Made by a program: the position numbers and the translations under genes. A DNA stretch of 64,000 nt, from assembly GCF_902459645.1 (NCBI RefSeq), contig NZ_CABPSK010000007.1:62001-126000 (forward strand). Direction: 5' to 3'. Under the pieces are notes generated by a model. The model saw nothing but the letters and a program-made list of their open reading frames with translations. It was not told where the DNA came from and searched no databases. This document shows positions 28,832 to 50,715 of the stretch, one piece after another. How positions within the stretch are numbered: the stretch's first letter is position 1; every line of letters starts with the position of its first letter. This DNA is from Pandoraea pneumonica. GTDB lineage: Bacteria > Pseudomonadota > Gammaproteobacteria > Burkholderiales > Burkholderiaceae.

Positions 28832-28910
28832 GATGAATTCGCGACAGCACGCACGGCCTGACGCCACGCGTAAAAGTGCCATTGTACCGGGAGTGTCTGC
28901 TCACTCGCCG

Positions 28911-29873
28911 ATGCGCCGGCGCCTGCTGCAAGCCGCCGCCTTGGCCGCTTGCCTGCCGCTCGCCGCCTGCACATCACCGCCCAACATCGGCGGCAGCTTC
29001 GTCCAACTCTGGCGCAGCCATCTGGAATGGACACGCGATCAATGGCGCGAGCGCCTCACCGCCACGCACGCACTGGGCTGCAAAGAAATCTTCGTACAGT
29101 GGACCGGGATCGACGGCGAGCCGGATAACACATGGCTGGCCCCCGATGCCTTGATCCGCACGCTCCTCGATGAAAGCGCTGCGCTCGGCATGGGAGTGCA
29201 TCTGGGCGTGCCGTACGACGAGCGCTGGTGGACCGCCATCGGCACCCCCGACGACGCATCGCTCGGCGCGTTTTTGCAACGCACCGGGCAAAACGCCGCG
29301 AGCTATATGCAACGCGCTACGTGGCCGAAGCATGCGGCCTTTCGCGGCTGGTATCTGCCTTACGAGCTGGAACAATACGATTGGGCCGCACCGGCGCGAT
29401 TGGACGCGCTGGCCGCATGGCTCGGCGGCATGTCGGCCGTCGCCAAAGCGACCAGCGGCCAGACCCCGACGATTTCCACTTACTACAGCCGCCTGCCGAC
29501 CCCTGGCACGCTTGCGGGCATGTGGAGCACGCTGCTGGACCGCGTCTCTCTGCACCCGATGATTCAAGACGGCGTAGGCGTCGCCGGCATGTCGAACTAT
29601 GCCGCCCTCGCGCCCTTGCACGACATGCTCGTGGCCAGAGGCGCGCCCTTCGATCTGATTCTCGAATTATTCGAAGAGCTGCCGTCGGAAAAAAACGACG
29701 GCACCACGTTCGACGCCAAGGCGGCAGAGTTCTCGCGCGTCAAACGACAGTGGGAAGTTGCCAAGGACTATGGCGCGACACGGGTGGTCGCGTTCGCTAT
29801 CGATCCTTGGGTGCTCGATGACACGCCCGGCTCGAAGGCGCTGCTGCGCGAGTGGCGCGCCGCGTTGTCCTGA
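28911..29873 (+). CDS. DUF4434-type lipoprotein, putative glycoside hydrolase
   Basis: A 320-residue predicted lipoprotein with lipobox 'LPLAAC' (Cys20) after an Arg-rich start. The body resembles DUF4434, a TIM-barrel family related to glycoside hydrolases: 'GSFVQLWRSHLEWTRDQW', 'LGCKEIFVQWTGIDGE', 'FRGWYLPYELEQYDW' and 'LILELFEELPSEK' supply aromatic residues and candidate catalytic acids. GTG 28893 is an alternative start. It ends 64 bases before the convergent AlgF-like gene of the NfrB operon, so it might act on that glycan or on the Wzx/Wzy product in the periplasm. Enzyme activity is inference. Confidence 0.75.
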   Translation: MRRRLLQAAALAACLPLAACTSPPNIGGSFVQLWRSHLEWTRDQWRERLTATHALGCKEIFVQWTGIDGEPDNTWLAPDALIRTLLDESAALGMGVHLGVPYDERWWTAIGTPDDASLGAFLQRTGQNAASYMQRATWPKHAAFRGWYLPYELEQYDWAAPARLDALAAWLGGMSAVAKATSGQTPTISTYYSRLPTPGTLAGMWSTLLDRVSLHPMIQDGVGVAGMSNYAALAPLHDMLVARGAPFDLILELFEELPSEKNDGTTFDAKAAEFSRVKRQWEVAKDYGATRVVAFAIDPWVLDDTPGSKALLREWRAALS

Positions 29874-29937
29874 AACGACGCCGCGACGCCACAACAGGTA
29901 ACGCCGGACGTCCGGATCAACGCTCAGCGCTCACCTC

Positions 29938-30612
29938 TCAGCGCTGATATGGATCAGTTGCGCTCAACTGTCCGCGCAGGACCGGGGCACTGGGCGTGCC
30001 GACCAGAAACAAGCTGTAGTGATCGCCCGGGGCCAGTGCGGGCAGCGCCAGCGTTTTCGACGCCACCGTGCCGCACGCGGACACCAGCGTCGCTTTGACC
30101 GGATTGATGGCCCGCGCCACCGATGGCCCCTGCCCCACGTTCTCGAACAACGCCGGGCCTGACGGACTCACGCTGAGTTGCCCGCCCGCGCATTGCGGGC
30201 TCAGGTTATAGAACCGAAGCTCCGCTTTGAGCCCGTCCTCGGTGCCGCCAGCGTCGGTCAGCACGGTGAACGTGACCTTGCTGCCATCGCGTCGCGGCAC
30301 CAGCGTGTTGAACGTGTCGGGCGCGACCTGAAGCGTGCCTGCGGGCTTTCCGTCGATCACGATGGGGAACGCCTCGTTGCCCTTGACGATGGCATACGTG
30401 CTCGCCACTTTCTCGCCCGAGAGTGTCTGAACGGGCCCTTTGGCCACCTGCGCACGCAGCGCCGTGCCGCCCGGGTTGACCACACGCACGAACGACGAGC
30501 CCGCCGGGGGCCGAGCAGCATAGAGTTGGGCGAAGATGCCCTCCGCATTCGCCACACCAATACCTGCAACGCTCATCGCACACGCGAGCACAAGATTTCG
30601 CAACGTTTTCAT
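29938..30612 (-). CDS. algF: AlgF-like polysaccharide O-acetylation protein
   Basis: A 224-residue secreted protein with a signal peptide (cleavage after 'GVANA', about residue 23) followed by the AlgF-family opening 'GIFAQLYAARPPAGSSFVRVVNPGG'. AlgF is a periplasmic adaptor required to pass acetyl groups to alginate together with AlgI and AlgJ. ATG 30612 was chosen for the signal peptide; it starts two bases after the ligase stop, so it is the last gene of the minus-strand operon. The second half is a beta-rich domain with Cys pairs ('LSPQCAGG', 'SACGTVAS'). Confidence 0.82.
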   Translation of the reverse strand: MKTLRNLVLACAMSVAGIGVANAEGIFAQLYAARPPAGSSFVRVVNPGGTALRAQVAKGPVQTLSGEKVASTYAIVKGNEAFPIVIDGKPAGTLQVAPDTFNTLVPRRDGSKVTFTVLTDAGGTEDGLKAELRFYNLSPQCAGGQLSVSPSGPALFENVGQGPSVARAINPVKATLVSACGTVASKTLALPALAPGDHYSLFLVGTPSAPVLRGQLSATDPYQR

Positions 30613-30614
30613 GC

Positions 30615-32096
30615 TTACGACTCCGAAGCCGCCGTAGTGCCGGGGCGCATGCGCGCCTCCAGATACATGCGTTCCAATTGTTTTCGATCTGCCTTGTCGC
30701 TGCTCGTGGTCGGAAAGCCATGACACACGAGCAACTCCGTCGGGATCATGTAGGGGGGCAAGCGCTGGCCCAGCAACGCTTTCCAATCGGCCAGCGCGTC
30801 CGGAATCGCATGCAGACCCGCGGGCCCGCTCGTTTCCGGCTCGACGAAGCCGATCATGCGCACGATCACACCGTCCGGACGGCGTAACGCTACCGCAGCC
30901 CCCGCGCGAATGCCGGGCAGCGTGGCGAGCGACGCGTCTACCTCCGCCAACTCAATCCGATAGCCGTGCATCTTGATCTGATCGTCGCGGCGGCCACGGA
31001 AAGTCACGAGCCCCTGCGCATCGATCTCACCGAGATCGCCACTGCGGTAGGCCCGTTTGCCGTTGTGCAAGAACAGCCGTGTCTCGTTGAGATCGGGCCG
31101 GTTCAGATAACCGCGCATGACGTGATCGCCTGCCATGCAAATTTCACCGTCATCGATGAACACGTCGGCATACGGTTTGGCGCGTCCGATGGGAAATGGC
31201 AGCGGTGCCGCCGCGCGCAGTGCCGGGTCGATCTCCACCCATGTGGTTGAGCAAGTGGCTTCGGTCGGCCCGTACGAATTGACGATGCGAACGTCAGGAA
31301 ACCGCTGCCAAAGCGCTTCGGCAACCGTCGGTGTGAGCGACTCGGCACCAAAGACGAACATCCGCAAATCCGGCAGATGCGCCGCATCGAACTCGGGATT
31401 GAGCAACTGCTGACGCACGAACGACGGCGTCGACGCCCAGACGTTCACACGTGTGTCTGCGAGATAACGCGCAAACGCCCCTTTGTCGGCAATGATTTCG
31501 CGCGGACACAACACACAGCAGCCGCCCGTGATCAACGCACCGGCCCAGTTGAACAACGAGAAGTCGAAGCTGAACAGCATCTGGTCCATGAAGGCAGGCG
31601 CGGGGCCCGGCTTCACGTCGTCACGAATCCATCGCGCGAACAGCGCCACGCTCTCACGCCCGATCTGCACGCCCTTGGGGTCGCCCGTGCTGCCCGAGGT
31701 GAACATGATGTAGGCGAGCTCGCGCTGCGCGAGCGCCGCCCCGGGCAGGCCCGTCGCCGAGAAGGCACGCGTCTGGGCATCGAACCGCAAGGGCGCTTGC
31801 ACCAGTTCACCGATACGCACAATGCGCGCTTCCGGATTGACGACGTCGACCGGCACGAACGGCACGCCTAGGCGCAGGCATCCCAGAATCGCCACGAGAA
31901 AGGCCGATTCCTTATGCCCTGAAATCACCAGCGGCACGTCGGCCGCCGCACCGGCCGCCGTGGCCTGCGCCATCCATTGCTCGGTCTCGGCAAGCAGTTG
32001 TGCCCAAGTGAGCGTGCCCTGCGGGTCGGTCACCGCCGGCGCGTCGGGGGCGTGATCGGTGTCGGCAAATGCCAGCCGTTCGAAATCGAAATACAT
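30615..32096 (-). CDS. DltA-like AMP-forming acyl/aminoacyl ligase
   Basis: A 493-residue stand-alone adenylation enzyme like D-alanine--carrier protein ligase. Core motifs are all present: 'IMFTSGSTGDPKGV', 'NSYGPTEATCSTTW', 'YRSGDLGEID', 'FRGRRDDQIKMHGYRIE' and the catalytic Lys in 'SSDKADRKQLER' near the end. It should activate a small carboxylic or amino acid with ATP and load it onto the carrier protein encoded directly upstream (gap 31 bases). The DltA resemblance suggests D-Ala, but the substrate pocket has not been decoded. Finding it in an Alg-type acylation operon is unusual. Confidence 0.88.
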   Translation of the reverse strand: MYFDFERLAFADTDHAPDAPAVTDPQGTLTWAQLLAETEQWMAQATAAGAAADVPLVISGHKESAFLVAILGCLRLGVPFVPVDVVNPEARIVRIGELVQAPLRFDAQTRAFSATGLPGAALAQRELAYIMFTSGSTGDPKGVQIGRESVALFARWIRDDVKPGPAPAFMDQMLFSFDFSLFNWAGALITGGCCVLCPREIIADKGAFARYLADTRVNVWASTPSFVRQQLLNPEFDAAHLPDLRMFVFGAESLTPTVAEALWQRFPDVRIVNSYGPTEATCSTTWVEIDPALRAAAPLPFPIGRAKPYADVFIDDGEICMAGDHVMRGYLNRPDLNETRLFLHNGKRAYRSGDLGEIDAQGLVTFRGRRDDQIKMHGYRIELAEVDASLATLPGIRAGAAVALRRPDGVIVRMIGFVEPETSGPAGLHAIPDALADWKALLGQRLPPYMIPTELLVCHGFPTTSSDKADRKQLERMYLEARMRPGTTAASES

Positions 32097-32127
32097 GGTT
32101 CAAACCCTCCGGCGAAGCGGCCGGCGC

Positions 32128-32367
32128 TCAGGCGCCCTTTTGCTCGGCAATGAATGCGGCGAGCGTCTGCACGGACTGCAGGTACACGTCGATTTCCGAC
32201 GGCGGCACCTTCACGCCGAATTCGCGCTCGACAGCCAGCACCACGTCGACGGCCGAGAGTGAATCGACCAGCCCCGAGTCGATCAGGAGCGTGTCGGGCT
32301 CGACCTGCGTCAGCACGATGTTGCCGACGATGTCGGTGAGTTTGCTTTCGATGTCATTGATGTTCAT
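32128..32367 (-). CDS. DltC-like acyl carrier protein
   Basis: A 79-residue carrier protein, the same size as DltC. The phosphopantetheine Ser is in the D-S-L motif of 'DSGLVDSLSAVDVV' (Ser about residue 36), in a small acidic helical protein. It sits between the DltA-like ligase and the MBOAT gene in the same order as dlt genes (ligase, carrier, MBOAT are adjacent). It should carry the activated group as a thioester to the membrane transferase. Confidence 0.9.
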   Translation of the reverse strand: MNINDIESKLTDIVGNIVLTQVEPDTLLIDSGLVDSLSAVDVVLAVEREFGVKVPPSEIDVYLQSVQTLAAFIAEQKGA

Positions 32368-32394
32368 GAAACGGCTCCCGCGAATGACGCGAAA

Positions 32395-33972
32395 TCAGAA
32401 TTGAAAATAAAGGAAACGCGTTTCCTTATGGAGATTCACCAGGCAAAGAAACAGCAGCACGAGCGTCACAGACAGCCATGCCGGGTTGGGTTGCCAACGC
32501 ATGAAACGGCGTGCCGCTTCCTGCACTTTGAATAGCGCGGGGGAATAACGCCCCAGAATCTGGTGAGCATTCGGCGTGAACCAGACGATGCCGAGCAGCA
32601 CGACGACATAGGACAGTTGCAGGTGATGGCCGATGAGCAGACGCCACGCGTCGCCGAAGCTCGCGCCGTCGAGATACCCGAGCGACGGCCATGCCTCGAA
32701 GCCCCGCAGACCGGTCATACCGCCAAGCAACGACAGCGCGTCGTGCACGCCGTTGGCGCGGAAGAACGCCTGCGCGACCAGCACCGCGACGAACGTCAAA
32801 CCGACCGATGCTACGTGTGCCTGCCAGCGAACCTTCTGCGACTTAGGACGACGGCCGACGACGAAGATACGCCAGGCATGATTGATCGACAGATAGGCGG
32901 CGTGCAGCAACCCGAACACCAGAAACTGAAAACCGGCACCGTGCCACACCCCGGCCAGCCCCATCGTGAAAATCGTCGGCACCGCAATCGTGCTCAGGAA
33001 GCCCGCGGGAGTCCGTGCCCCCTCCGAGCCCACCGGCAAACCGCGCGCAGTGCGATATCGCGAAATGGCCATCGCCACCGGGTAATACAAATAAGACGTC
33101 AGATAGCGCGTCAGCGTGATGTGCCACCGCGCCCAGAAATCGATGACGCTCGTCGCCTTATACGGCGAATTGAAGTTCAGCGGAAAGCGGATACCGAACA
33201 TCTTCGCCAGCCCCAGCGCCATATCGGAATAGCCGGAGAAATCGAAATACACCTGTAGCGCGTAGCAAAGACTGGTGCCCCACGCGGCCCAGAACTGTAG
33301 ATCGCTCGGCGATGCAAACCCCGCATCGGCATACGGCGCAATCGCATCGGCCAGCAGCACTTTCTTCGCCAGCCCAATCGCGAACAGCATGCCGCCGATC
33401 GACAAGTTCTCGGCCTTAAAGCGGTAATTTTCGCGCTGCGCGAACTGCGGCATCATCTCTTTGTGATGCAGAATCGGCCCGGCAATCAAGTGCGGGAAGA
33501 ACGTCACAAACAGCACATAACTCAGCAGACTGCGCTCTTTCACGAGCCCAGCACGGCAATCCAGGAGGAAGCCGATTTGCGTGAACGTGAAGAACGAGAT
33601 GCCGAGCGGCAGGATCAACGTATCGACGCTCGAATGCGTGAGCCCGAGATCGTGCAGAAACCCGAACAGCGCCGCGAAGTACTTGTAGTGGAACAGCACG
33701 ATCAGATCGACGCCCACACCGACGGTAACGATCGCGTTCTGCACGCGAGCGCGCCCCGCGTTGCGCAATACGCCCTGGCTGATCGCGTAGTTGAACGCGA
33801 TGGAGAGCGCCAGCAAGGCCACAAATTGCGGATTCCACCAACCATAGAACACGAACGACGTCAGGCAGAGCCAGAACGCTGCGAGACGCAGATTGATGGC
33901 GCCGCTGAGGTAGTGTCCCGCCAGCGCTACCGGCAGGAACAGCAACAGGAACAGGTAAGAGTTAAACAGCAT
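32395..33972 (-). CDS. algI: AlgI/DltB-like MBOAT O-acyltransferase
   Basis: A 525-residue membrane-bound O-acyltransferase with about eleven hydrophobic segments. It opens 'MLFNSYLFLLLFLPVALAGHYL' (as AlgI does) and carries 'FHYKYFAALFG', 'PLGISFFTFTQIGFLLDC', 'HKEMMPQF' and the catalytic His region 'GLAGVWHGAGFQFLVFG' near residue 343. AlgI moves an acyl group through the inner membrane for transfer to alginate; DltB does this from a carrier protein. This protein is AlgI-like in length and opening but is next to a carrier protein gene, so it probably takes its acyl group from that carrier. Confidence 0.92.
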   Translation of the reverse strand: MLFNSYLFLLLFLPVALAGHYLSGAINLRLAAFWLCLTSFVFYGWWNPQFVALLALSIAFNYAISQGVLRNAGRARVQNAIVTVGVGVDLIVLFHYKYFAALFGFLHDLGLTHSSVDTLILPLGISFFTFTQIGFLLDCRAGLVKERSLLSYVLFVTFFPHLIAGPILHHKEMMPQFAQRENYRFKAENLSIGGMLFAIGLAKKVLLADAIAPYADAGFASPSDLQFWAAWGTSLCYALQVYFDFSGYSDMALGLAKMFGIRFPLNFNSPYKATSVIDFWARWHITLTRYLTSYLYYPVAMAISRYRTARGLPVGSEGARTPAGFLSTIAVPTIFTMGLAGVWHGAGFQFLVFGLLHAAYLSINHAWRIFVVGRRPKSQKVRWQAHVASVGLTFVAVLVAQAFFRANGVHDALSLLGGMTGLRGFEAWPSLGYLDGASFGDAWRLLIGHHLQLSYVVVLLGIVWFTPNAHQILGRYSPALFKVQEAARRFMRWQPNPAWLSVTLVLLFLCLVNLHKETRFLYFQF

Positions 33973-34007
33973 CGGATGTCGCGTTTCGTATCGTCAGACG
34001 TTGCCCA

Positions 34008-35108
34008 TCAGGGCAAACGGGCCAGCACGGACTTCTCGTCGTCGCTAAGCGGCAGCGACAACGCGTTCTCCGAGAATTCCCAGATCACCAGCTTCAGGCT
34101 CTTGGGCCACTGCGCGCGCTGTTTGAGTGCGACGGTCAGTGCCCCGGCAAAATCGCCGCCGTCCATGCTCAGATTCCAGACCTCGCGCCCCAGATCGACG
34201 CCCAGCCATTCGGCAAAGTTGCTGCGCCGCCCATGCGAACTACCCGCCAGCATCACTTCGACAGGCGGGGTTTCATCAAGCAGGCCGCCGCTGCGCAGCG
34301 GAGCGATGAGTTGCGTCGCTGCCTGATCGGGTCGCGGGCGCCAACCGTCGTGCGCCTGCGCCAGCCCAGAGAGCGAAAGCAGATCGCCCACCCGCGGTTC
34401 GGCAGGCGCGGGCGTACCGACATCAAACGCTTGTGCGCCTTTGCCGGGCAGCAACGCCAAACCGGCCTGCGCAACCGTTGCCGCAGCGGCCTTCGCGCCT
34501 TCGGCATTCATGTGCACGTCGGTACGGAAGAACATCGGCCGGTTGCGATCGACCAGCGTCGGGCGCAAATCGACGAACGGCACGCCGTCGCGGTGCAATG
34601 CCGTCTTCACGATATCCATGCGGGCAAGCATCGCCGCCGACACCGGCTGGCCGCACAAATGCGACGACTCGATGCGAGCCTTGTCGGGCACCGCCACCAC
34701 CAGCACGTTGACGCCTTGCGCGCGAACCTGCGCGAGCCAGTAATGCATAAGCCGCAGACGATCTTCGAACACGGCATCGGTCGTACCGGGCTTCGGGCGC
34801 ATGCCGTCCCGATAGAACATCCACTGCGGGCATCCCATCGCGACCTGCTCGCCGACGTCGCCCAGCGCCCGATAGCGCACTGCCGCGTTCCATGTTTCGA
34901 CCGTCTCTTGCTCAGGCAGACGCAACGACTTGTTGAGCGCAACACCCGCCGTCCCGTCGAGCCACGCCGACAGACGCAGTTGATCGCGATCGAGTTGCGC
35001 GTGGGCGAGCGTCCACACGCCCCACGCGAGGCCCATGCCGAGCAATACCGCCATGACGACGGCGTTCAGGCGGTGCGATGGCGGCGAGGAGGTATCCATA
35101 TCCGGCAC
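34008..35108 (-). CDS. AlgJ/AlgX-like SGNH-type acyltransferase (membrane-anchored)
   Basis: A 366-residue protein with one N-terminal membrane segment (about residues 15-35) and a periplasmic domain of the AlgJ/AlgX type. The catalytic pattern is visible: Asp-His in 'MFFRTDVHMNAEG' and the Ser motif in 'MLAGSSHGRRSNF'; 'VVAVPDKARIESSHLCG' is the fold's early strand. AlgJ and AlgX carry out acetyl transfer in the periplasm. It is the second of two such genes, 4 bases after the first, and 35 bases before algI. The two may act in sequence, as AlgJ and AlgX do. Confidence 0.87.
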   Translation of the reverse strand: MPDMDTSSPPSHRLNAVVMAVLLGMGLAWGVWTLAHAQLDRDQLRLSAWLDGTAGVALNKSLRLPEQETVETWNAAVRYRALGDVGEQVAMGCPQWMFYRDGMRPKPGTTDAVFEDRLRLMHYWLAQVRAQGVNVLVVAVPDKARIESSHLCGQPVSAAMLARMDIVKTALHRDGVPFVDLRPTLVDRNRPMFFRTDVHMNAEGAKAAAATVAQAGLALLPGKGAQAFDVGTPAPAEPRVGDLLSLSGLAQAHDGWRPRPDQAATQLIAPLRSGGLLDETPPVEVMLAGSSHGRRSNFAEWLGVDLGREVWNLSMDGGDFAGALTVALKQRAQWPKSLKLVIWEFSENALSLPLSDDEKSVLARLP

Positions 35109-35112
35109 GTGC

Positions 35113-36123
35113 TCAGTTCCCCAATGCGGCCTTCAGGCGCTTGCGCCAGGCATCGGGCGTCATGATCGAGGCGTTGTCCCACAGTCCAGAGGCATCCGGG
35201 CCTTGTGAATAGGCGGGCTCGAAAATCTGCCAGACGAGCACTTGCGGCTTGGTCTGCTTGAACGCGGGCGATTCGACGTATTCGAGCAGCATCACCCACT
35301 GCCCGACGTTGCCCGGTTTCCAATTCACCGAGACGGGACGATCGAGCACGTTCGACAACTTTTGCGGGAACCCGAAATACGGCTGCATCATGCTGTGGCC
35401 AGTGATATGCACCGGCGCCGGGGCGTCATCGAGCAGGTTCTGGCCGTCGGACGGACGGCGCACCGTGAACACCTCGCGCCCGATTTTCTTGCGCTCCTCC
35501 GGCGTCAGAAAGAGTTCGGCCAAATCGCCATAGCGGCGATCGTTGACCATGCCGCCCAGCGGCATGCCCGTGCCCGGCTTGCCCGACAGTTCCGGCACGT
35601 CCTTGTGAATCATGTCGGCTGTCGCTTGCGCGGTGGCGTCGGCGGCAACCTGCGTCCAGTGCTGATCGGTGCGGTAGTACACGTCCTGACCGCCATCCTT
35701 GATCCGGCGCAGAATCACTTCGTCGTCGAACGTCGTAATGCCAGCGGCTTGCAGCTTGTTCAGAATCGTCTTGTAGCGTGCCTTCACTTCCGGGCTCATC
35801 ACTTTGCCGTCGGGCAGCTTGTCCTGATAGAACAGCGACTTGTCCGGCAACAGCAGCACTTCGAGCTTGATATTGCGCGCCGCGAGCGCGTCACGCGCTT
35901 CGACCACCAGCGCCGTGTTCGCATCGATCCCGCGCGTATCGACCTGCGTGAGACTGCCCCAGCCGGGAAACAGCCAGTTGTCCTTGCCACGCAAGATGAG
36001 CGTCGAGGCGTCTTGTGCCTGTGCCGCCCCCAAGGCAAACGTCAGTAGACATGCGCTCAGGCGACGTACGAAGCCCGCGTGAAAACGTCGCGCTGCGCGA
36101 GGTTCGAAAGCGTACGGCGTCAT
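35113..36123 (-). CDS. AlgX/AlgJ-like secreted SGNH-type acyltransferase
   Basis: A 336-residue secreted protein with a signal peptide (to about residue 36, 'GAAQAQDAS') followed by 'LRGKDNWLFPGWGSLTQ', the usual AlgX/J opening. The Asp-x-His-Trp motif is in 'YYRTDQHWTQVAAD' and the Ser is in 'HITGHSMMQPYFG'. ATG 36123 is chosen because the signal peptide starts there and the longer frame overlaps nfrA. It should transfer the acyl group to the polymer in the periplasm. It begins 38 bases after nfrA ends. Differences from its neighbour suggest the two are not a recent duplication. Confidence 0.87.
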   Translation of the reverse strand: MTPYAFEPRAARRFHAGFVRRLSACLLTFALGAAQAQDASTLILRGKDNWLFPGWGSLTQVDTRGIDANTALVVEARDALAARNIKLEVLLLPDKSLFYQDKLPDGKVMSPEVKARYKTILNKLQAAGITTFDDEVILRRIKDGGQDVYYRTDQHWTQVAADATAQATADMIHKDVPELSGKPGTGMPLGGMVNDRRYGDLAELFLTPEERKKIGREVFTVRRPSDGQNLLDDAPAPVHITGHSMMQPYFGFPQKLSNVLDRPVSVNWKPGNVGQWVMLLEYVESPAFKQTKPQVLVWQIFEPAYSQGPDASGLWDNASIMTPDAWRKRLKAALGN

Positions 36124-36161
36124 GTTGCAACTCCTCGATAGCAATTGAAATCTGTCATGTG

Positions 36162-38891
36162 TCAGTACGACAGCGTGAAGGTCATGAATAGGCCCTTGGC
36201 CCGATCCGCCTGTCCGCCGCCGATGTTGAAGCGATACTGCGTGGCAAAGTCGACATACGAGCGCGCCGTGTTGTAGTGGTCGGAGCGGAAGTAGTAGCGG
36301 ATGTTGAAACCCACGCCCGCCCCCAGCGACCATGAACTGCTGTTGCCGAGCAGTTCATAGTCGTCCACGCCATTGATCGGCAGTCCCTCGACCCGGTCGG
36401 CATTCTTGAGCCAGTCGCCGCCCAGCACCACATAGGGGAACAGCACGAGATGTTCGTCGATCTGGTCCATCCGGAAGCTCTGACCGGCACGAACTTCGAA
36501 GGCGGCGAAGTACTGACGCCGCTTAACCTTGCCGGAGGTCCGTTCGTCGGTCGCGCCCGTCGCGTTGTTCGTGAGCCAGAGGTCGGACGGCAGGTCTTGC
36601 CACGAGTAACCGGCCTGCACGTAGCTCTCGAGCGTGAACCAGCTCGGCTGGTCCATGCGCAACTCGCTGCCGATGTAGTGCCCATAGGTGGCGTACGCCT
36701 GCCAGCCGCCGTTGCCCGCATTGGCGTGATAGTTGGCCGTCTGGTTACGCTGATTGAGCGCGCACTGAAGGTCCTGTCGCAGCGGCTGGAAGGTGCCCGA
36801 GCGCGTTGCCGATCCGAGCAAGAACTGACGCTCCAGACCGAACGTCAGGCCGAGATCGGTCGACGGCGTGAAGCGCATGCCGAGAATGCCCACCGTCGTC
36901 GGAAACCCCGAACTGCCCCGGTTCGACGTCGGATCGATGTTGATGGGTGCCTGACTGCACGGATCGAGACCCGTTTGCGCGAGGGTGTTGCCGCCCGCGT
37001 CGTACAACGTGTTCGTCAACTGGCCATAGACTTCGAACGCGTGATTGTTGGCGTTCAACCAGCCGCGCGGACGCCAGAACACTTCGGCCGTACTGAAGAC
37101 CGCATTGCCCGGCACCGAGATCGCCGCCCCGCCCAAGCTCCCCCCGGCGGGACGTGCACCGCGATAGCCGACGGAGACCGTCGCACCCCACTGGCGCGAC
37201 ACATCGGCGATGGCGCTACGCGTGTCGAGCAGTTGCTCGGGCGTTAGCGATAGCCGTTTGGCGTCGTAGTCGTCGATGGCCTGACGGAACGTGCTCTCGG
37301 CTTCCGCCTTTTGTCCGGCCGCCGACAGCGCATACCCTTCTGCCAGCACCACATCCGGCGATGCCTTTCCGGTGGCCCGCGCTGCGCGAAAATCTTCGAC
37401 GGCCAGCGCCGGTTCGTTGATACGTTGGCGCAGATAACCGCGCTGAATCAACAGATCGGGGTCGCCCGGCTTCTCCGCCAGCGCCTTCTCGATACGCTCG
37501 CCCGCTTCCTTCGTCTGTGCCGAATCTCCGGCAGCGAGCGTCGTGGTCAACAGGCTCTGATAAATCGGGCTCTTCGGATCGAGCTCGACGGCACGGCGCG
37601 CTTGCTTGATCGCCTCTTGATAGTCCTCACGATCGTACGCGGCGTACGCTTGCGCCGACGGACCGCCGTAGCCGACCGTGTCGTAAGGCAACAACTCGTA
37701 GACGGTACCGTAAGGGGTTTCGCGCGGGTCCTGAATCGGCGCCGGGAAATTGATCTGCGTGAGTGCCTTAGGCGCGCGTGCGCCGGAACGGGCGAGCTTC
37801 AGCCGCTTCTTGACGGCGTCGTCCTTCGGGTCGAGCGGTGTCACCAGTTCGATCGCACGCGGATGATCGCCCGCCGCAAGCGCGGCATCGGCGGCAATGA
37901 GGCGAACGTTGCGCACCTGCCCTTCGTCGAGCCAATCTTGCTTGATGGCTTCGTCGAAGTCGGCATCGGCCAGTGCTTTCTTGCCTTGAAGCTGACGCAG
38001 ATAGCCGCGCATCTCGAGCGCGACGGTGTTCTCATCGTTCTGCGTGAGCGCCTGACTCGCCGCCTCTTCCGCCTCGGGCAACTGATTGTCGAGCATGTAC
38101 GCGGAGATCAGCAGCAGACGATAGCTGTCGTCCTCGGGCGCCAGACGCACCGCCTCCAGCGCGAACGGAATCGCATCCTTCGGCTTGTTGTCGATGATGG
38201 CCTGATACCCGTTGCTCGCCGGGTCCACCGCCATGCGCGCGCGCAACACCTGAATGCGCGCTTTCAAATCCGAGGTATTCGGTGCCCCCAGCGAAATCGC
38301 AGTTTCTGCGGCACTGACACCGGCATCGAACTTCTCCTGCGCTTCCAGTCCGGCGATCCAGAGCAATGCCCATTCACCGCGCGACGGATCGATACGGAAC
38401 GCTTGCTCCGCGTGTGTCGAAGCTTCCACGTATTGCTGCGCGTTGTACTCCGAGTACGCCTGCGTCGCGATAGGAAAGCCGCGGCGATACGCCTCCGTGG
38501 GCGGCGGCCCGCCCGCCTGCGCACCGCTCAGGTTCGTATTCGCGTCGCGCAATGCGGGGGTGTCGAAGCCGTACTTGAGGGCGCTGTCGACCGCTTTGCG
38601 AGCGTCGTCGATCTTGCCCGCGCGTTGCAGCGAGTAGACAAGCAGCATGCGCAGGCGCAACACATCGGGGCGCATGCGCACCGCAGCGGCGGCCGCGGTC
38701 GCCGCCTGTTCGAAGCGTCCTGCCTGATAGTGCTTGTAGGCTTGATCGGCAAACTTCCACGCCTGTCCGGACAGCGGCGCGTCGCCGTTCTGCCGCACGG
38801 CGTGCGTTGTGGCTTGTGCCATGACCGGCGACGCCGACCAGCAGCAAGCCATAGCCGTGACGAGAAGAAGAGTTCGGAATGGCGGCATCAT
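36162..38891 (-). CDS. nfrA: NfrA-like TPR and outer-membrane barrel protein
   Basis: A 909-residue secreted protein (signal peptide to about residue 27, 'SPVMAQA'). Residues about 40-600 are helical repeats of TPR type ('AWKFADQAYKHYQAGRFEQAAT', split over units, and many similar). The last 300 residues look like a beta-barrel, ending with the aromatic C-terminus 'FMTFTLSY' needed for outer-membrane insertion. This is the layout of E. coli NfrA (N4 adsorption protein A) and of BcsC/PgaA-like glycan exporters. It overlaps nfrB by 4 bases (ATGA). It should lead the glycan made by NfrB through the periplasm and outer membrane. Confidence 0.9.
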   Translation of the reverse strand: MMPPFRTLLLVTAMACCWSASPVMAQATTHAVRQNGDAPLSGQAWKFADQAYKHYQAGRFEQAATAAAAAVRMRPDVLRLRMLLVYSLQRAGKIDDARKAVDSALKYGFDTPALRDANTNLSGAQAGGPPPTEAYRRGFPIATQAYSEYNAQQYVEASTHAEQAFRIDPSRGEWALLWIAGLEAQEKFDAGVSAAETAISLGAPNTSDLKARIQVLRARMAVDPASNGYQAIIDNKPKDAIPFALEAVRLAPEDDSYRLLLISAYMLDNQLPEAEEAASQALTQNDENTVALEMRGYLRQLQGKKALADADFDEAIKQDWLDEGQVRNVRLIAADAALAAGDHPRAIELVTPLDPKDDAVKKRLKLARSGARAPKALTQINFPAPIQDPRETPYGTVYELLPYDTVGYGGPSAQAYAAYDREDYQEAIKQARRAVELDPKSPIYQSLLTTTLAAGDSAQTKEAGERIEKALAEKPGDPDLLIQRGYLRQRINEPALAVEDFRAARATGKASPDVVLAEGYALSAAGQKAEAESTFRQAIDDYDAKRLSLTPEQLLDTRSAIADVSRQWGATVSVGYRGARPAGGSLGGAAISVPGNAVFSTAEVFWRPRGWLNANNHAFEVYGQLTNTLYDAGGNTLAQTGLDPCSQAPINIDPTSNRGSSGFPTTVGILGMRFTPSTDLGLTFGLERQFLLGSATRSGTFQPLRQDLQCALNQRNQTANYHANAGNGGWQAYATYGHYIGSELRMDQPSWFTLESYVQAGYSWQDLPSDLWLTNNATGATDERTSGKVKRRQYFAAFEVRAGQSFRMDQIDEHLVLFPYVVLGGDWLKNADRVEGLPINGVDDYELLGNSSSWSLGAGVGFNIRYYFRSDHYNTARSYVDFATQYRFNIGGGQADRAKGLFMTFTLSY

Positions 38892-40585
38892 GTCGCGGCA
38901 GTGGAAACGTCGTTAGGCGGCAGCGGCGGCGCGATCACGCCCTGCTGGAACGAGATGGCTTCATGAAGCGTGGCTTCGTCGAGCCAGCCCAATTGCATGA
39001 GAATTTCGCCGAGGGGACGTTTCTCGCGCTCCTGCGTTTCCAAAGCAAAGGCCAGCTTGGTTTCGTCGATGGCCTGCCACGACAGCAACAACTCGCCCAG
39101 TCGCTGACGCTGCGCGGTGATCTGGTCGGTCGACGGGAAATCGTGCATCGTCTTATCCCACACGAGGCGCTTGCCCGTGACGAGATGCACGATGAACAAT
39201 CGCCACGCGCGCGCGGCGGCCATCGCGTTGATGAAGTTGCCGATCACCATGCGCGGTGCGGCAAGCAGCGAATGTTCCCAGCCGTACATGTGGTACACGA
39301 AGAAGCTGCGCTGGCACACGCGCAGCGCCAGCGCCACGGCGTTCACGCTCATGAGCGTCATGACCCAGCCACCCGGTGGGAAAACTGACGGGTAATACAC
39401 CTTCCACCAGCCCATGCGGTCGGCAAACAGGAACAGCAGGAAATTGAGCAACAGCACGTAAGCGATGATGGCGATGAACGACGTCGCCAGCCCCTTGCGG
39501 TCGCGGAACAGCAGATATTTCGTCGCAAGCGACCCCGCCCAACCGACCTGCGCCCAGCCCTGAAGCCCGATGCCCAGTGTCCAGCGCGCCTTTTGCCGGT
39601 AAGCGGTTCTGAAGGTGTTGGGGAAATACTCGCGAATGCCGAGTGGCATGCGGATTGTCGAGATTTTCTCCTGACCGAAGCCGAACATCCGCTTACGCTT
39701 AATCACATACTCGACTGGAAACTTGCCGAAGATCTGCTTCATGCCGCGCCGCGCCAGACGCGCACCGATGTCGTAGTCTTCCGTCAGCGTGTCGGTATTG
39801 AACGGCTGGTTGTCGGTCTCGGCCGCAAGCTCCTCGAGCGCCCGGCGCGAAAAGCAAGTGCCCACACCCGCCGACGGCACCATCTTCGACAGACTCTCGC
39901 GCACCACCAAGTCCTTGGTGTGCCATTCGGCAAACTCGTCCATGTACGTGCCTGCGACGAGTTCGTACCATTCGCGCTCGAGCGACGTCACAGGCAACTG
40001 GATGAAGTCGATGCGCGGCAGCAGATAGTTGTAATACTTCAGCTCCAGCGGGTGAAGCACGTCTTCGCTGTCGTGAAGAATCACGCCTGCGAACGGCTCC
40101 GGCTGCTGCTGGTTCTGCTTGAAAATCGCCTGCACGATCCAGTTCAGACAATCGGCCTTGCACGTCGGCCCATCGTGCGGCACCTCGACGCGCACCAGCT
40201 GCCGGTAGCGGCGGCGCATACGCTCGACTTCCGTCTTGGTGCGCTCGTCGTTCTGATAAGTGCCGACGAAAATCATGTAGTTCTTGTATTCGAGCGTGCC
40301 CACCATGCTCTCTAGCATGGCGGCGATCACGTCGAATTCGAGCCAGGCCGGCACCATGATCGCGAGCGGCTGTTCTCTCACGGCGCGCAACTGCGACGCC
40401 TGCAACGGCGTGTAGCGGCGTTTGATGAACAGCGAGCGATAGATCTGGCGCCCCCAGTACCAGGCATCGACGAACAGATCGTCGATGCTCGATAGCAGGA
40501 TGAGGATGCCGACTACCGCGCTGGCAATTTCCAGCGCGTGGTAGTAGTCGGCCACCAGATACGGCCAATAGAGCGAGGAGATCAC
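38888..40585 (-). CDS. nfrB: NfrB-like GT2 glycan synthase with C-terminal MshEN motif pair
   Basis: A 565-residue inner-membrane glycan synthase of the NfrB family. One N-terminal hydrophobic segment precedes a cytosolic GT2 domain with 'HDSEDVLHP' (D-x-D region), 'TEDYDIGARL' (catalytic Asp) and 'YRQKARWTLGI' (the Q-x-x-R-W motif of processive synthases). About three membrane segments follow. Residues 495-547 form two 24-residue motifs with a 5-residue spacer that fit the MshEN c-di-GMP binding consensus. E. coli NfrB is known to make a ManNAc-containing phage N4 receptor glycan under c-di-GMP control. The 4-base overlap with nfrA and the position after a BcsB-like gene support a synthase complex. 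Confidence 0.9.
   Translation of the reverse strand: MISSLYWPYLVADYYHALEIASAVVGILILLSSIDDLFVDAWYWGRQIYRSLFIKRRYTPLQASQLRAVREQPLAIMVPAWLEFDVIAAMLESMVGTLEYKNYMIFVGTYQNDERTKTEVERMRRRYRQLVRVEVPHDGPTCKADCLNWIVQAIFKQNQQQPEPFAGVILHDSEDVLHPLELKYYNYLLPRIDFIQLPVTSLEREWYELVAGTYMDEFAEWHTKDLVVRESLSKMVPSAGVGTCFSRRALEELAAETDNQPFNTDTLTEDYDIGARLARRGMKQIFGKFPVEYVIKRKRMFGFGQEKISTIRMPLGIREYFPNTFRTAYRQKARWTLGIGLQGWAQVGWAGSLATKYLLFRDRKGLATSFIAIIAYVLLLNFLLFLFADRMGWWKVYYPSVFPPGGWVMTLMSVNAVALALRVCQRSFFVYHMYGWEHSLLAAPRMVIGNFINAMAAARAWRLFIVHLVTGKRLVWDKTMHDFPSTDQITAQRQRLGELLLSWQAIDETKLAFALETQEREKRPLGEILMQLGWLDEATLHEAISFQQGVIAPPLPPNDVSTAAT
38945..39103 (-). other. Tandem MshEN c-di-GMP-binding motif in NfrB
   Basis: Coding for NfrB residues 495-547. 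Motif 1 begins R-L-G-E-L-L and ends A-L-E-T-Q; motif 2 begins P-L-G-E-I-L and ends A-I-S-F-Q. Each is 24 residues and they are 5 apart. Conserved positions L2, G3, L6, L/I12, L17, L/I21 and Q24 are kept in both; Arg1 only in the first and Gly10 only in the second. Confidence 0.8.
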
Positions 40586-40604
40586 GGCGGCGTGTCTCTA
40601 CCGA

Positions 40605-42980
40605 TCAATGGCTGTCTTGTTTCTTGCGCCCAGCGCGCAGCGCCAGCACGAGAATCAGCAGCAGCACCAGCAGTGCGATGGCAATCGCGGGCACGCCCCA
40701 CGACACGTAGCGGCGCCATTCGTAGAAAGCGCTCTCCCCGGCCCCCGGCGGCAAGCTGGCGTCGGGGTTGCTGCTGTCGACCCATGCGACCGGCCCTGCC
40801 GGTCCGATGATCGCGAGATTGCCGCGATTGAGCAGGAACGGCTCACCGACTTCGGCCTGCGGCTCGCCAACGGCGTACCACAGCAGGCCGTCTTCACCGC
40901 CACCACGCACCACTTCTGCGGTCGACAAGTTCTCCAGTCCGGTGATGTCGAGCCACTTGGCATCTTTACCGCCGATCTCCAGCCGCTTGCGATCCGACAC
41001 GGTGACCGTGGGCTTGGCACCATCGACCTGCACTTCCATGGCGACGAACGGTTTGCTCGGCTTCACGCTCTTGCCATCGGCGGCAACCGTCAGTTCGGTG
41101 CGCGACGGGGCCAGTCCGCTGGCGGCGGCAATGCCGATCACGCGGCGGATATTGGCCGGGGCGTCTTTGAGATAGCGATCGGGCACGATCAGTTGCGGAT
41201 TGCCAGCCATGAGCGGCAGCAAGCCAACGAACGTGCCGTCCGGTTCCGCCTTGCCCGGGCGGATGTAGCTCGCGGCGGGCAACACATTGACCGGATAGGC
41301 CTGCGGAATCTCATCGCAGTTCGCCGAATACGGCTGGCGCTGCACCGACACGCGCAAGTTGTTGTTCACGCCGAGGACATAGCCCGGCACACGGGCCTTG
41401 AGTTGCTCGGGACGCCCGTTGGCGTCGAGTTGCTTGGCGGCCAGCAGAATGCCGTTCCAGAACACTGTGGCGACCGGCTTGGACGATGCCGGTCCTGGCG
41501 CAGCCGCGAGATACAGCGAAATTTCGCCCGGCATGCGGCCGTCGGATGCCACGGCACCCAACGGGAAACTCACCGTCCAGTCGCCGCGCGCGAGCACGTC
41601 GAAGCTGTCCGACGACCCGCCCAGGCTGGAGAGCCGCACCACTTGTTTGTCGGCGATGTCCGGCGTGTGAGCCACCGGTGCGGTCACGTTGTTCGAGAGC
41701 AGCAAGCGGCGCAACGAGTTGTCGAAAAGCCCTGCGGCCTGCGCACCGGCGTCGCCCGCGATGGCGATCACCGACTGACTGCCCATCGACAGCAGACGAA
41801 TTTGTTTCGCCCCCAGTGCATCGGCGGCGAGCGGTGCACGCTGATCACGCCACGTCTTGAAGGCTGCTGCGGCGTCGGTATCGGACGCCAACTGGCCTTG
41901 CAGCGCATCGAACGCTGCGGCGAGACGCGCACGCATCGCCGCATCAGCCACGACCACCTCGCCGCTCACCGACGGTGCGTTCACCGCCAGCAACGCGCCC
42001 AGTTCAGCGTCATTGGCCAGCTTGTGCGTGGCGCTGTTGTCACGCAGCGCAGCAAAGGCAGGCACGCCCGCCAGCGCTGCGGGCACGTTGACACCGCGCG
42101 TATCGACAACGTCGCCCACGGCGGGCAATGCGCGCACCTGCACGCGCTTGCCGCTACGCTCGAGCGCCACGCCGATGCGCCAGGCGCTGTCGAAGGCTTC
42201 TTGACTCAGGGTCTTCGACGCGACGAGCAGCGCCGGGGCCCCAGGCAACGTGCCCCATGCGTCATCGAGACTCGAAACCGACTTCTGATCGATGCGATAC
42301 GTCAAACGTGTCTGCGGGGTGATCGTCACCGAGTTCGCGAGCGAACGATCGGGCTCGCAGCGGTACGTGCCCGTGCGGGAATGCCAGTTGACCGAAAAGC
42401 GCACGAAGCCGGTGTCGCGAGGCCGCGACGAGACCGCGAGATTGCGTTGCAGCGGACCGTCGCCGTCAGGCAACGACTGGGACGTCATCGGCTGTCCGTC
42501 GATGGACAGCACCACCGACGCGGCACCGGGTTCGCCTTTCAAATAGCGGCCGTCGAATGCAATCGAGGCGTCGGCGAGCGGCAGCCCTTTGGGCACCGGC
42601 AGATAGAAGTCTTGACTGGCGTCGCCCGAGAGCACGATCGGTGCCGTGATCCCCAGATCGGCCAGTGCGATGCTGCGTTGCAGGTTGACGCCAGACCCCA
42701 GCGCACGCACGCCATCGCCCAGCGCGCTAGCGTGCGACGCGAGCGGCGCGAACATGCCGAGCAAGGCGAACACACCCATCGTCGCTGCACACAGTTGGCG
42801 CAGTGGCGCGGCGGCCGACGGGGGCACATCCGAAACCGAACGGGAAAGGTCGCGGGCCATTCGGCGACGCATGGGCAAAGTGTTGAGCAACGGCATGGAA
42901 GATCCGTGAATGGACGCAGCTTCCGCGTGAGCGGTCGATGCGGGGTTGGACGGAATGGGGTGCGGCAAGGTGGTGGTCAT
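40605..42980 (-). CDS. BcsB-like periplasmic glycan-synthase subunit
   Basis: A 791-residue protein with a hydrophobic export segment near residues 65-85 ('ATMGVFALLGMFAPLASHASA'), a large periplasmic beta-rich part and one C-terminal membrane segment ('AIAIALLVLLLILVLAL') with a basic tail. This is the layout of BcsB, the periplasmic guide of cellulose synthase. Typical pieces are 'LRVSVQRQPYSANCDE', 'LPAASYIRPGKAEPDG' and 'FDGRYLKGEPGAASVVLSIDG' (split). E. coli nfrAB lack such a partner, so this operon seems to merge NfrB- and cellulose-type parts. It lies between wecB (19-base gap) and nfrB (19-base gap). Confidence 0.85.
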   Translation of the reverse strand: MTTTLPHPIPSNPASTAHAEAASIHGSSMPLLNTLPMRRRMARDLSRSVSDVPPSAAAPLRQLCAATMGVFALLGMFAPLASHASALGDGVRALGSGVNLQRSIALADLGITAPIVLSGDASQDFYLPVPKGLPLADASIAFDGRYLKGEPGAASVVLSIDGQPMTSQSLPDGDGPLQRNLAVSSRPRDTGFVRFSVNWHSRTGTYRCEPDRSLANSVTITPQTRLTYRIDQKSVSSLDDAWGTLPGAPALLVASKTLSQEAFDSAWRIGVALERSGKRVQVRALPAVGDVVDTRGVNVPAALAGVPAFAALRDNSATHKLANDAELGALLAVNAPSVSGEVVVADAAMRARLAAAFDALQGQLASDTDAAAAFKTWRDQRAPLAADALGAKQIRLLSMGSQSVIAIAGDAGAQAAGLFDNSLRRLLLSNNVTAPVAHTPDIADKQVVRLSSLGGSSDSFDVLARGDWTVSFPLGAVASDGRMPGEISLYLAAAPGPASSKPVATVFWNGILLAAKQLDANGRPEQLKARVPGYVLGVNNNLRVSVQRQPYSANCDEIPQAYPVNVLPAASYIRPGKAEPDGTFVGLLPLMAGNPQLIVPDRYLKDAPANIRRVIGIAAASGLAPSRTELTVAADGKSVKPSKPFVAMEVQVDGAKPTVTVSDRKRLEIGGKDAKWLDITGLENLSTAEVVRGGGEDGLLWYAVGEPQAEVGEPFLLNRGNLAIIGPAGPVAWVDSSNPDASLPPGAGESAFYEWRRYVSWGVPAIAIALLVLLLILVLALRAGRKKQDSH

Positions 42981-42999
42981 CGCTGGCGTCCCCGTCGTG

Positions 43000-44160
43000 T
43001 CAGGGCGCGCGGCGAATAGCCGAGGCGTCGGGATCGAACTCGCTCACCGTGCGCCCGCAAAGCGCGGCGACGATGCGTTGTGAGGCGTGGCCATCGCCGT
43101 ACGGATTCACGCGGCGCGAGAACGACGCGTGATAAGCCAAGTCATCGAGCAATCGGGTCACCGCTTCGACGATGCGCTCGCGGTTCGCGCCCACGAGTGC
43201 CACCGTTCCCGCTGCCACTGCCTCCGGGCGTTCCGTAACGTCGCGCATGACCAGCACCGGTTTGCCGAGATACGGCGCTTCTTCCTGCACGCCTCCCGAG
43301 TCGGTGAGAATCACGTACGCGCGCCGCATGAACCAGACGAAGTCGACGTAATCGAGCGGCTCGATCAGATGCACGTTGTCGAAACCCGCCAGCGTGGTCA
43401 TCACCACATCGCGAACCGCCGGATTCAGGTGCACGGGGTAGACGATCTGCACATCGTCGCGCTTTGCGATATCGGCCAGCGCCGCGCAGATATTGCGAAA
43501 TCCGTCGCCGAAGCTCTCGCGGCGATGCCCGGTCACCAGCAGCAGGCGACGCGAACTATCGAGCCACGGGTAACGTGCCGCCACCTCGGTCGCCAGCGGC
43601 GAATCGTCGCGCAGTCGTTCCATGAGCGTGGCGAGCGCATCGATCACGGTGTTGCCGGTGACGGCAATGCGCCCGTGCAGGTTCTCGCTCAGCAGGTTCG
43701 CCCGCGACGTGGCCGTGGGGGCGAACAGCCAATTGCCGACCGCATCGACCACACGGCGATTCATCTCTTCGGGGAAGGGTTTGGACAGGTCGCCAGTGCG
43801 CAGGCCCGCTTCGACGTGCCCGATGGGAATGCGGCGGTGAAACGCAGCGAGTGCACAGGCCGACGCCGTACTCGTGTCGCCGTGCACCAGCACGTAATCC
43901 GGCTGCTCGGCTTCCAGCACAGCGTCTACCCGAGAGATAGCGCGGGAGAACAGGCCGTTGAGCGTCTGATTCGGCACCATGACTTCGAGGTCGTACTTGG
44001 CCGAAAGATCGAAAATCGACATCACCTGATCGAGCATTTGGCGATGCTGACCCGTCACGCAAACCACGCTGTCGATACCAGGCTCACGATCGAGCGCCGT
44101 CACGAGCGGCGCCATCTTTATCGCCTCAGGACGTGTACCGAAGATAGACAGGACTTTCAT
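43000..44160 (-). CDS. wecB: UDP-N-acetylglucosamine 2-epimerase (non-hydrolysing)
   Basis: A 386-residue cytosolic enzyme that interconverts UDP-GlcNAc and UDP-ManNAc. It has 'MKVLSIFGTRPEAIKMAPLV' at the start, 'VHGDTSTASACALAAF', 'HVEAGLRTGDLSKPFPEEMNR' (split), 'ATSRANLLSEN' and 'LTDSGGVQEEAPYLGKPVLVMRDVTERPEA' regions, all diagnostic. ATG 44160 is taken because the conserved start is there; the frame continues upstream without protein character. It is the first gene of the minus-strand synthase operon. No UDP-ManNAc dehydrogenase is present in the window, so UDP-ManNAc itself is the likely synthase substrate. Confidence 0.95.
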   Translation of the reverse strand: MKVLSIFGTRPEAIKMAPLVTALDREPGIDSVVCVTGQHRQMLDQVMSIFDLSAKYDLEVMVPNQTLNGLFSRAISRVDAVLEAEQPDYVLVHGDTSTASACALAAFHRRIPIGHVEAGLRTGDLSKPFPEEMNRRVVDAVGNWLFAPTATSRANLLSENLHGRIAVTGNTVIDALATLMERLRDDSPLATEVAARYPWLDSSRRLLLVTGHRRESFGDGFRNICAALADIAKRDDVQIVYPVHLNPAVRDVVMTTLAGFDNVHLIEPLDYVDFVWFMRRAYVILTDSGGVQEEAPYLGKPVLVMRDVTERPEAVAAGTVALVGANRERIVEAVTRLLDDLAYHASFSRRVNPYGDGHASQRIVAALCGRTVSEFDPDASAIRRAP

Positions 44161-44296
44161 CGTTATGTATTCCGGTCGTTGCCTGCCGACGCCATACGGC
44201 GGGCAGGCTTTATCTCGCCCCGGAGACTTCGGACATGGGGCGCTCAGACATGAGGTCGGAATGGTGACGGCGACGCTATGACACTTACTTCGTTGT

Positions 44297-44312
44297 CCGA
44301 TATATATATCGG
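44297..44312. promoter_or_regulatory. 16-base perfect palindrome upstream of wecB
   Basis: CCGATATATATATCGG lies about 137 bases before the wecB start. It is an A/T-core palindrome in an otherwise GC-rich genome, a good candidate operator for the synthase operon. Confidence 0.4.
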
Positions 44313-44547
44313 CTGCCTGCGCGGCGAAGACCAACAGACGACGCCGACCTGAGCGGTCAGGGTCGCAATACCTCCTCTTGCCACTTTTCTCGCGCCGAAA
44401 AGCACTTTTTACTCATCGGCACGAACTTAGTTTTCCGGATGGTAGCGAGGCATCGTCCCCATACAGTCCCCCCGATTTGTGCTGTCGCACATGCACAACA
44501 GCACTTTTCTCCTTGAAATCAAGGGTTGACGGGCGTTAAAACCAACG

Positions 44548-44590
44548 AAAAAGCCCCGTGCCGACGCCGCAAAACGGCATCGCACGGGGC
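44548..44590 (-). terminator. Intrinsic terminator of the TonB-system operon
   Basis: On the minus strand the stem GCCCCGTGC/GCACGGGGC (44582-44590 with 44553-44561) has an inner GCCG/CGGC stem, followed by TTTTT (44552-44548). It lies about 66 bases after exbB ends. Confidence 0.88.
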
Positions 44591-44655
44591 CAACGTCAAT
44601 ACAACTGAGGCAGTTCGGCAGCCGAGCTTATCGGGCCGCCGTCATACGCGTGAAA

Positions 44656-45285: not shown

Positions 45286-45333
45286 ACGAAGGTTCCTCTT
45301 TCAAATTCGTGAGTGCGAATGCAGCGGCTCGCC

Positions 45334-50705: not shown

Positions 50706-50715
50706 GTTGTCTAGT

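Follow-up and report, generated by a model that had tools for sequence, protein, structure and literature searches.

The Nfr system of Escherichia coli, NfrBA-YbcH, is described in two 2021 papers (PMC8669469, PMC8669472) and is associated with the N4 glycan receptor (NGR), which was still termed enigmatic in 2025 (PMC11990801). Relatives that include acyltransferases have also been reported. In Achromobacter xylosoxidans, nfrA, nfrB and wecB are accompanied by a BcsB homologue as well as periplasmic O-acetyltransferase homologues (PMC8669472), and in Simplicispira suum an alginate-type acetyltransferase set lies within the nfr cluster (PMC8669469). The combination of nfr, bcsB and acyltransferase genes is already known, and is interpreted as acetylation in the published text on these two clusters, which, figures and supplements aside, makes no mention of a carrier protein, DltA, FkbH or module exchange. 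Here, we describe a locus of Pandoraea pneumonica that has these shared parts, including wecB and a BcsB homologue as in A. xylosoxidans. It lies in a window of 64,000 nucleotides, the whole stretch of DNA that was analysed (positions 62001-126000 of contig 7; genome 5.85 Mb). The closest named relatives are Pandoraea, with an NfrB identity of 87-96%, and same-genus genomes were treated as Pandoraea by their NfrB match to named Pandoraea. Ten open reading frames (ORFs), all on the minus strand, occupy 29938-44160, and we consider it likely that they encode machinery for an Nfr-type exopolysaccharide, regulated by cyclic di-GMP (c-di-GMP) and equipped with an acylation module that is fed by a carrier protein. 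The sequence and structure comparisons establish families, folds, motifs, conservation and a pattern of exchange between loci; the substrates and products given below are predicted. The genes, together with a convergent ybcH homologue and the block that contains them, are as follows.

43000..44160, minus strand: wecB, non-hydrolysing UDP-N-acetylglucosamine (UDP-GlcNAc) 2-epimerase, making UDP-N-acetylmannosamine (UDP-ManNAc); TIGR00236, 475 bits, cut-off 210
40605..42980, minus strand: bcsB-like, periplasmic BcsB-fold subunit with a C-terminal helix; fold match
38888..40585, minus strand: nfrB, NfrB-type glycosyltransferase family 2 (GT2) synthase with an MshEN-type c-di-GMP motif; NF012033, 933 bits, and NF053729, 54.7 bits
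36162..38891, minus strand: nfrA, exporter with tetratricopeptide repeats (TPR) and an outer-membrane barrel; PF13283 NfrA_C, 86.5 bits, and TPR families
35113..36123, minus strand: algX1, SGNH acyltransferase (DQH and GHS motifs); PF16822, 223 bits; PDB AlgJ 4o8v, E 1.2e-15
34008..35108, minus strand: algX2, second SGNH acyltransferase (DVH and GSS motifs); PF16822, 205 bits; AlgJ 4o8v, E 2e-11
32395..33972, minus strand: MBOAT acyl shuttle, DltB/AlgI-like, with the C-terminal hexapeptide FLYFQF; PF03062, 75.9 bits; TIGR04091, 171 bits
32128..32367, minus strand: acyl carrier protein (ACP) with DSL serine; PF00550, 37.3 bits
30615..32096, minus strand: DltA-like amino-acid:carrier ligase with the pocket DFFAVGSCSK, unlike D-alanine (D-Ala) ligases; TIGR01734, 336 bits; AMP-binding, 175.5 bits
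29938..30612, minus strand: algF-like periplasmic acylation protein; PF11182, 42.2 bits, cut-off 34.4
28911..29873, plus strand: ybcH homologue, DUF4434, with a lipoprotein-like N-terminus and a glycosidase-like TIM barrel; PF14488, 212 bits, and fold
28832..52360, no strand: accessory block with the locus inside; blastn against the nfrB-less same-genus regions L159-L162 (0/4 have the block)

From wecB to algF, the intergenic gaps are 19, 19, -4 (the nfrB/nfrA overlap), 38, 4, 35, 27, 31 and 2 bases, where the starts of algX1 (36123) and algF (30612), like that of the ybcH homologue, were chosen by eye. No match to an exact-pattern sigma-70 consensus was found in the window. A preliminary description of this DNA had listed ten minus-strand genes with small gaps and a 4-base nfrB/nfrA overlap, and had read them as an NfrB/NfrA/WecB glycan system with a cellulose-type periplasmic subunit and an acylation set. 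The ORF coordinates bear out the layout, the profiles (TIGR00236, NF012033, PF13283, PF16822, MBOAT, PP-binding, AMP-binding and AlgF) bear out the families, and the overall reading is supported, with NfrB placed by profile and the BcsB-like protein by fold in the families named; the YbcH homologue, the exchangeable nature of the module and the accessory block had been missed. As it had suggested, the gene order was searched for in other genomes, and it recurs in many of them, more than chance would give. The locus represents a genuine and widely distributed variant of the Nfr system.

Much like NfrBA-YbcH of E. coli, the Pandoraea locus pairs an NfrB-type GT2 bearing an MshEN motif with an NfrA exporter, a YbcH/DUF4434 protein and a link to WecB. 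It differs in adding a BcsB-fold subunit and an acylation module, in having wecB inside the operon and ybcH outside it, and in a shorter NfrB (565 aa versus 745 aa). The window NfrB exceeds the cut-offs of both the NfrB-type model NF012033 (537 bits) and the MshE-type c-di-GMP motif NF053729 (38 bits). The comparison covered 86 loci, made up of the window, five from the same genus and, out of 363 relatives, the best 80; TED and QxxRW are present in all 86 NfrB rows, the window included. In the family scan of the window NfrB only GT2 families were found and PilZ was not detected, so that the likeness to the cellulose synthase complex lies in the BcsB fold and BcsA with PilZ is not matched. No Pfam, NCBIfam or PDB-sequence match was obtained for the BcsB-like protein itself, and BcsB chains are the top fold matches of its AlphaFold model (predicted local distance difference test, pLDDT, 79.8).

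In the proposed scheme, WecB would supply UDP-ManNAc and NfrB would polymerise it, switched by c-di-GMP through the MshEN motif. The BcsB-fold protein would then guide the chain across the periplasm, NfrA would export it, and the YbcH/DUF4434 protein would cleave or trim it. The ManNAc backbone is what we infer from wecB linkage: wecB is the first gene of the operon and was detected in 82/86 nfrB loci, and the nfr phenotypes of E. coli require it (PMC8669469, PMC8669472). These observations make it unlikely that the polymer is not ManNAc-based, with WecB feeding the adjoining Wzx/Wzy-type cluster (13.6-28.5 kb) and NfrB using UDP-GlcNAc or another sugar, an explanation favored by the very presence of a second polysaccharide cluster beside the locus and by the fact that no in vitro NfrB specificity was found in the portions of the literature consulted.

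The acylation module looks carrier-fed. In DltX, FXYXXF is the acyl-shuttle motif, which in other systems is fused to the MBOAT protein, and a carrier is described as missing from other MBOAT/SGNH pathways, evidently because they are fed by acyl-CoA (PMC12148441). The C-terminus of the window MBOAT, FLYFQF, fits this motif, so that the shuttle forms part of the MBOAT itself, and the operon nevertheless encodes a carrier and a DltA-like ligase. The module is conserved across loci: FLYFQF is the C-terminal end in 61/63 MBOAT rows (the remaining two being a broken ORF and a contig end), the serine motif DS[LVMA] is present in the carriers of 59/59 carrier-type loci, and D-x-H and the serine are kept in 64/64 first and 63/63 second SGNH proteins, six of the second ones having GTS. 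The window MBOAT also matches DltB 8jem/6bug with E of about 1e-25. Alongside chain synthesis, the DltA-like enzyme would activate an alpha-amino acid and load the carrier protein, MBOAT would transfer the amino acid to the Tyr of its own FLYFQF, and both AlgX/J-type SGNH proteins would, with the aid of AlgF, place it on the chain as an ester. With the Dlt pathway of teichoic acid D-alanylation this shares an adenylating ligase, a carrier protein, MBOAT, an SGNH transferase and a Tyr shuttle hexapeptide; it differs in the fused shuttle, in AlgX/J and AlgF for DltD, in a changed ligase pocket and in the predicted exopolysaccharide acceptor.

Typing was possible for 79/86 loci, while L058, L085, L089, L103, L105, L108 and L123, at contig ends or remnants, were left untyped. 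A window-class DltA with ACP is found in 36 typed loci, a D-Ala-class DltA with ACP in 17 and FkbH with ACP in 6; two Herbaspirillum loci have MBOAT without a carrier, and 18 have no module in their stretch. In one of the Herbaspirillum loci (L114:18981-21261), the genes after the carrier-less set are a weak DUF4434-like one (44 bits against a cut-off of 344) and, by eye, one for an apparent HD-GYP c-di-GMP phosphodiesterase. The A. xylosoxidans locus L071 has no module in its stretch, and strains of this species therefore differ from the published example. In a Simplicispira relative (L093), a D-Ala-class ligase and a carrier stand beside algF, which suggests that the published Simplicispira acetyltransferase example may add D-Ala.

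This distribution bears on plain O-acetylation as in alginate or cellulose, with DltA and the carrier serving another purpose. The families of alginate acetylation are all here, namely ALGX SGNH proteins with catalytic motifs, AlgF and an MBOAT with a FXYXXF-type end as in alginate (AlgIJFX) and cellulose (Wss) acetylation; similar loci have been published as acetylation sets, and the carrier-less version occurs in the 2 Herbaspirillum loci. The window does not, however, have the alginate-type trait of no carrier protein and an acyl-CoA donor, as ACP and a DltA-like gene are in the operon and the donor appears to be carrier-bound. An ACP and a donor enzyme are present in 59/61 typed loci with MBOAT, and two unrelated donors (DltA-like and FkbH), each with its own ACP, accompany the same kind of MBOAT/ALGX/AlgF set. 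We consider it improbable that DltA and the carrier have a separate role; with a carrier protein and a DltA-like ligase accompanying the set, plain alginate-type acetylation of the glycan is unlikely. The decoration proposed in the preliminary description thus stands as acylation, and less so in its alginate-type form.

The ligase pocket bears on which acid is carried. Mapping 53 DltA rows on B. subtilis DltA 3e7w, at pocket positions that we take from the nonribosomal peptide synthetase code, separates two classes. The first, DFF[AT][VLM]GSCSK, comprises 36/53 rows (32 of them identical to DFFAVGSCSK and four differing by one change) and occurs in Pandoraea, Achromobacter, Delftia, Bordetella and Pseudomonas, among others. 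The second, D[VL]Y[VT][LV]CTVAK, comprises 17/53 rows, one of which ends before the last position, and resembles the 3e7w pocket, DLMTMCTVAK, from which the window class differs at 8/10 positions with Gly in place of Cys. This Cys sets the D-Ala preference of DltA. The amino-group aspartate is kept in both classes, and both should therefore take alpha-amino acids; the window ligase probably takes a neutral amino acid other than D-Ala. The window pocket is not known to fit any code, and an attempt to name the amino acid from it was abandoned.

A Dlt-type D-alanylation pathway moved to an exopolysaccharide would account for the DltA, DltC-like and DltB-like parts, and the D-Ala-type pocket, Cys included, is indeed found in 17/53 relatives. 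For the window it is nevertheless somewhat unlikely: the differing pocket class extends over several genera, the ligase scores far below the DltA equivalog cut-off, and AlgX-type proteins stand in the place of DltD. Bordetella dra adds D-Ala to an outer-membrane component described as unidentified (PMC9410548, PMC4448142). We considered whether dra is this locus and rejected it, as the separate ligases that were read out have the D-Ala-type pocket and the adjoining MBOAT is 28-31% identical to that of the window. Among 15 Bordetella-type-genus genomes, a window-class DltA (70-72%) occurs in 2 and a separate DltA (51-53%) in 8, one of those 2 included. Five of these 8 separate dlt-like ligases, in loci not confirmed by name as dra, were read out (L131, L133, L134, L137, L140), and 5/5 have the pocket DLYVLCTVAK.

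The ybcH homologue belongs with the glycan system. It is convergent with the operon (plus strand, ~28911-29873), shares PF14488 with E. coli YbcH (212 bits in the window protein, 235 bits in YbcH) and has a glycosidase-like fold in the fold search. DUF4434 is missing in 6/6 nfrB-less same-genus genomes tested and is found in 2/2 with nfrB. By locus type, it is seen in 9/36 window-class, 0/17 D-Ala-class, 6/6 FkbH and 9/18 no-module loci. A DUF4434 alignment comprised the window and 17 of 18 named loci, L049 being left out.

Module exchange is most readily seen within the genus. NfrB is present over its length in 14/32 same-genus genomes (its own included), and of these 14 Pandoraea loci, ten have the module of the window (type A) and four an FkbH module (type B) in the order nfrA-algF-algX-algX-fkbH-ACP-MBOAT-glyoxalase. 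The FkbH of type B loci scores 309.5 bits with TIGR01686 against a cut-off of 146.7. As in the FkbH/ACP glyceryl-carrier systems of polyketide clusters, FkbH is found with a free ACP; type B loci, which are relatives and not the window, have an MBOAT/SGNH set and no polyketide synthase beside it. A glyoxalase-fold (vicinal oxygen chelate, VOC) gene follows MBOAT in 6/6 FkbH-type loci (e.g. L037:17447-17851), beside the glyceryl donor.

Mean A-B identities are 86.1, 80.5 and 88.8% for the core proteins WecB, BcsB and NfrB, within 4 points of the within-type values. For the module they are 36.7% for NfrA, 45.3 and 50.0% for ALGX, 60.7% for MBOAT, 40.5% for AlgF and 55.9% for DUF4434, compared with 75.6-92.7% within types. 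On quick trees without bootstrap of the 77 of 79 typed loci with NfrA >650 aa (74 for WecB), the FkbH label changes once with NfrA versus 5, 6 and 5 times with NfrB, BcsB and WecB, and the window-type label 5 versus 10, 12 and 10 times. The FkbH label is distributed almost randomly on the NfrB tree of all 86 rows (5 changes; shuffled mean 5.9; 56/500 shuffles as low), and well-supported branches force at least 3 changes. One Pandoraea locus of the window's type (L051) has an NfrA nearer Trinickia (75.9%) than other Pandoraea (60.6%) and an NfrB nearer Pandoraea (88.2%) than Trinickia (82.7%); its NfrA is probably a second import. Between Achromobacter loci with and without a module, NfrA identity is 60.7% versus 77.0 and 86.8% within groups, while NfrB (89.0% versus 91.9 and 92.3%) and BcsB (78.6% versus 84.0 and 83.6%) differ less.

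Old divergence of two paralogous loci, with no module exchange, is a very improbable source of the Pandoraea A/B pattern. The module proteins of both types are still homologous (37-61%) and the no-module label has no preference for the NfrA tree, but between A and B the core genes of the operon hardly differ more than within types, the left-flank zinc-ribbon gene is common to 9 A and 2 B loci, and the FkbH label changes as given above. On these sequence comparisons, lineages swap nfrA-to-ybcH as one unit and keep wecB-bcsB-nfrB. NfrA thus travels with the decoration at least between the two carrier types, given the A/B identities, the trees and the L051 and Achromobacter patterns, which fits an exporter passing a decorated chain. 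More tentatively, and at a confidence a little short of evenly balanced, we propose an Nfr locus family in which a wecB-bcsB-nfrB machine is combined with exchangeable decorating modules (a non-D-Ala amino acid in the window, D-Ala, FkbH glycerate, acyl-CoA-fed, or none) that can bring their own NfrA and YbcH.

Several observations weigh against the carrier-fed Nfr-type machine or against parts of it. The named loci are the best 80 among 363 relatives, which biases the counts towards close kin. The core manages without an acyl module in 18/79 typed loci, and the Herbaspirillum loci show that a carrier-less version exists. The window MBOAT is below the DltB equivalog cut-off of TIGR04091 (171 versus 375 bits), the DltA-like ligase is below that of TIGR01734 (336 versus 560 bits), and the E. 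coli NfrB model NF008411 gives the window NfrB 571 bits, its cut-off of 1170 not being reached, so that by this model the protein is classed as NfrB-like and not as an equivalog. Pfam MshEN PF05157, which does match E. coli NfrB, has no match on the window NfrB. A wecB gene was not detected in 4/86 loci, and the Pseudomonas putida locus L096, of the window's type, shows none in its stretch; the case for UDP-ManNAc as the NfrB substrate is built on linkage to wecB and on genetic work in E. coli (PMC8669469, PMC8669472). The pocket classes depend on positions taken from the nonribosomal peptide synthetase code, and no particular amino acid can be named from them. DUF4434 is seen in 24/86 loci only, partly because stretches end near algF, and E. 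coli YbcH is reported to be dispensable for N4 infection (PMC8669469). Lastly, two labels show little or no NfrA preference: no-module (8 changes versus 8, 9 and 7 on the core trees) and D-Ala-class (3 versus 3, 4 and 5).

The locus is part of an accessory block of ~23.5 kb that is missing from 4/4 nfrB-less same-genus regions compared, two further nfrB-less genomes without the left marker gene having been set aside. Similarity runs from the left to ~28,831 and resumes at ~52,360, immediately ahead of tRNA-Glu and tRNA-Ala; in the nfrB-less regions, no more than about 170 bases separate the two flanks. The left edge is marked by a gene for a zinc-ribbon-like small protein (by eye; 28613-28882, minus strand) that ends in five histidines and is 91-100% identical in 11/14 Pandoraea loci (9 type A, 2 type B). 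Within the same block, 44656-52323 holds ExbB, TonB-dependent receptor, phospholipase-D-like and PhoD-like phosphatase genes, ExbB being present in 4/14 Pandoraea stretches and 0/6 nfrB-less genomes. The adjoining Wzx/Wzy-type polysaccharide cluster at 13592-28541 contains genes for an initiating sugar transferase, MatE-like, Wzy_C-like (weak, under cut-off), GH44, Poly_export, DUF6492 and acyltransferase-3 proteins, and its right end (from ~23.4 kb) is retained in 4/4 nfrB-less regions compared.

The preliminary description had held that no described pathway joins all these parts. The nfr, wecB, BcsB and O-acetyltransferase association was in fact published (PMC8669472, PMC8669469), and the carrier and DltA go unmentioned in that text. 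An open-access literature search returned no paper on NfrB together with DltA, and, by titles and abstract starts, none joining FkbH or DltA to exopolysaccharide acylation; the literature searched yielded no description of carrier-fed donors, of the altered ligase pocket, of FkbH as an alternative or of nfrA-to-ybcH exchange. The locus offers a testable structure for a decorated member of the N4-receptor-type glycans, in which YbcH/DUF4434 is named as the likely trimming enzyme and the donor enzymes predict the class of substituent. It also suggests that, for some loci interpreted as acetyltransferase sets, the group added may be an amino acid or glycerate. If the family of exchangeable modules is real, it would represent carrier-protein-fed acylation of a synthase-type exopolysaccharide, not found described, and a form of surface switching for which phages binding the glycan or NfrA are a plausible driving force. 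Natural module exchanges could then tie genes to glycan chemistry and phage binding.

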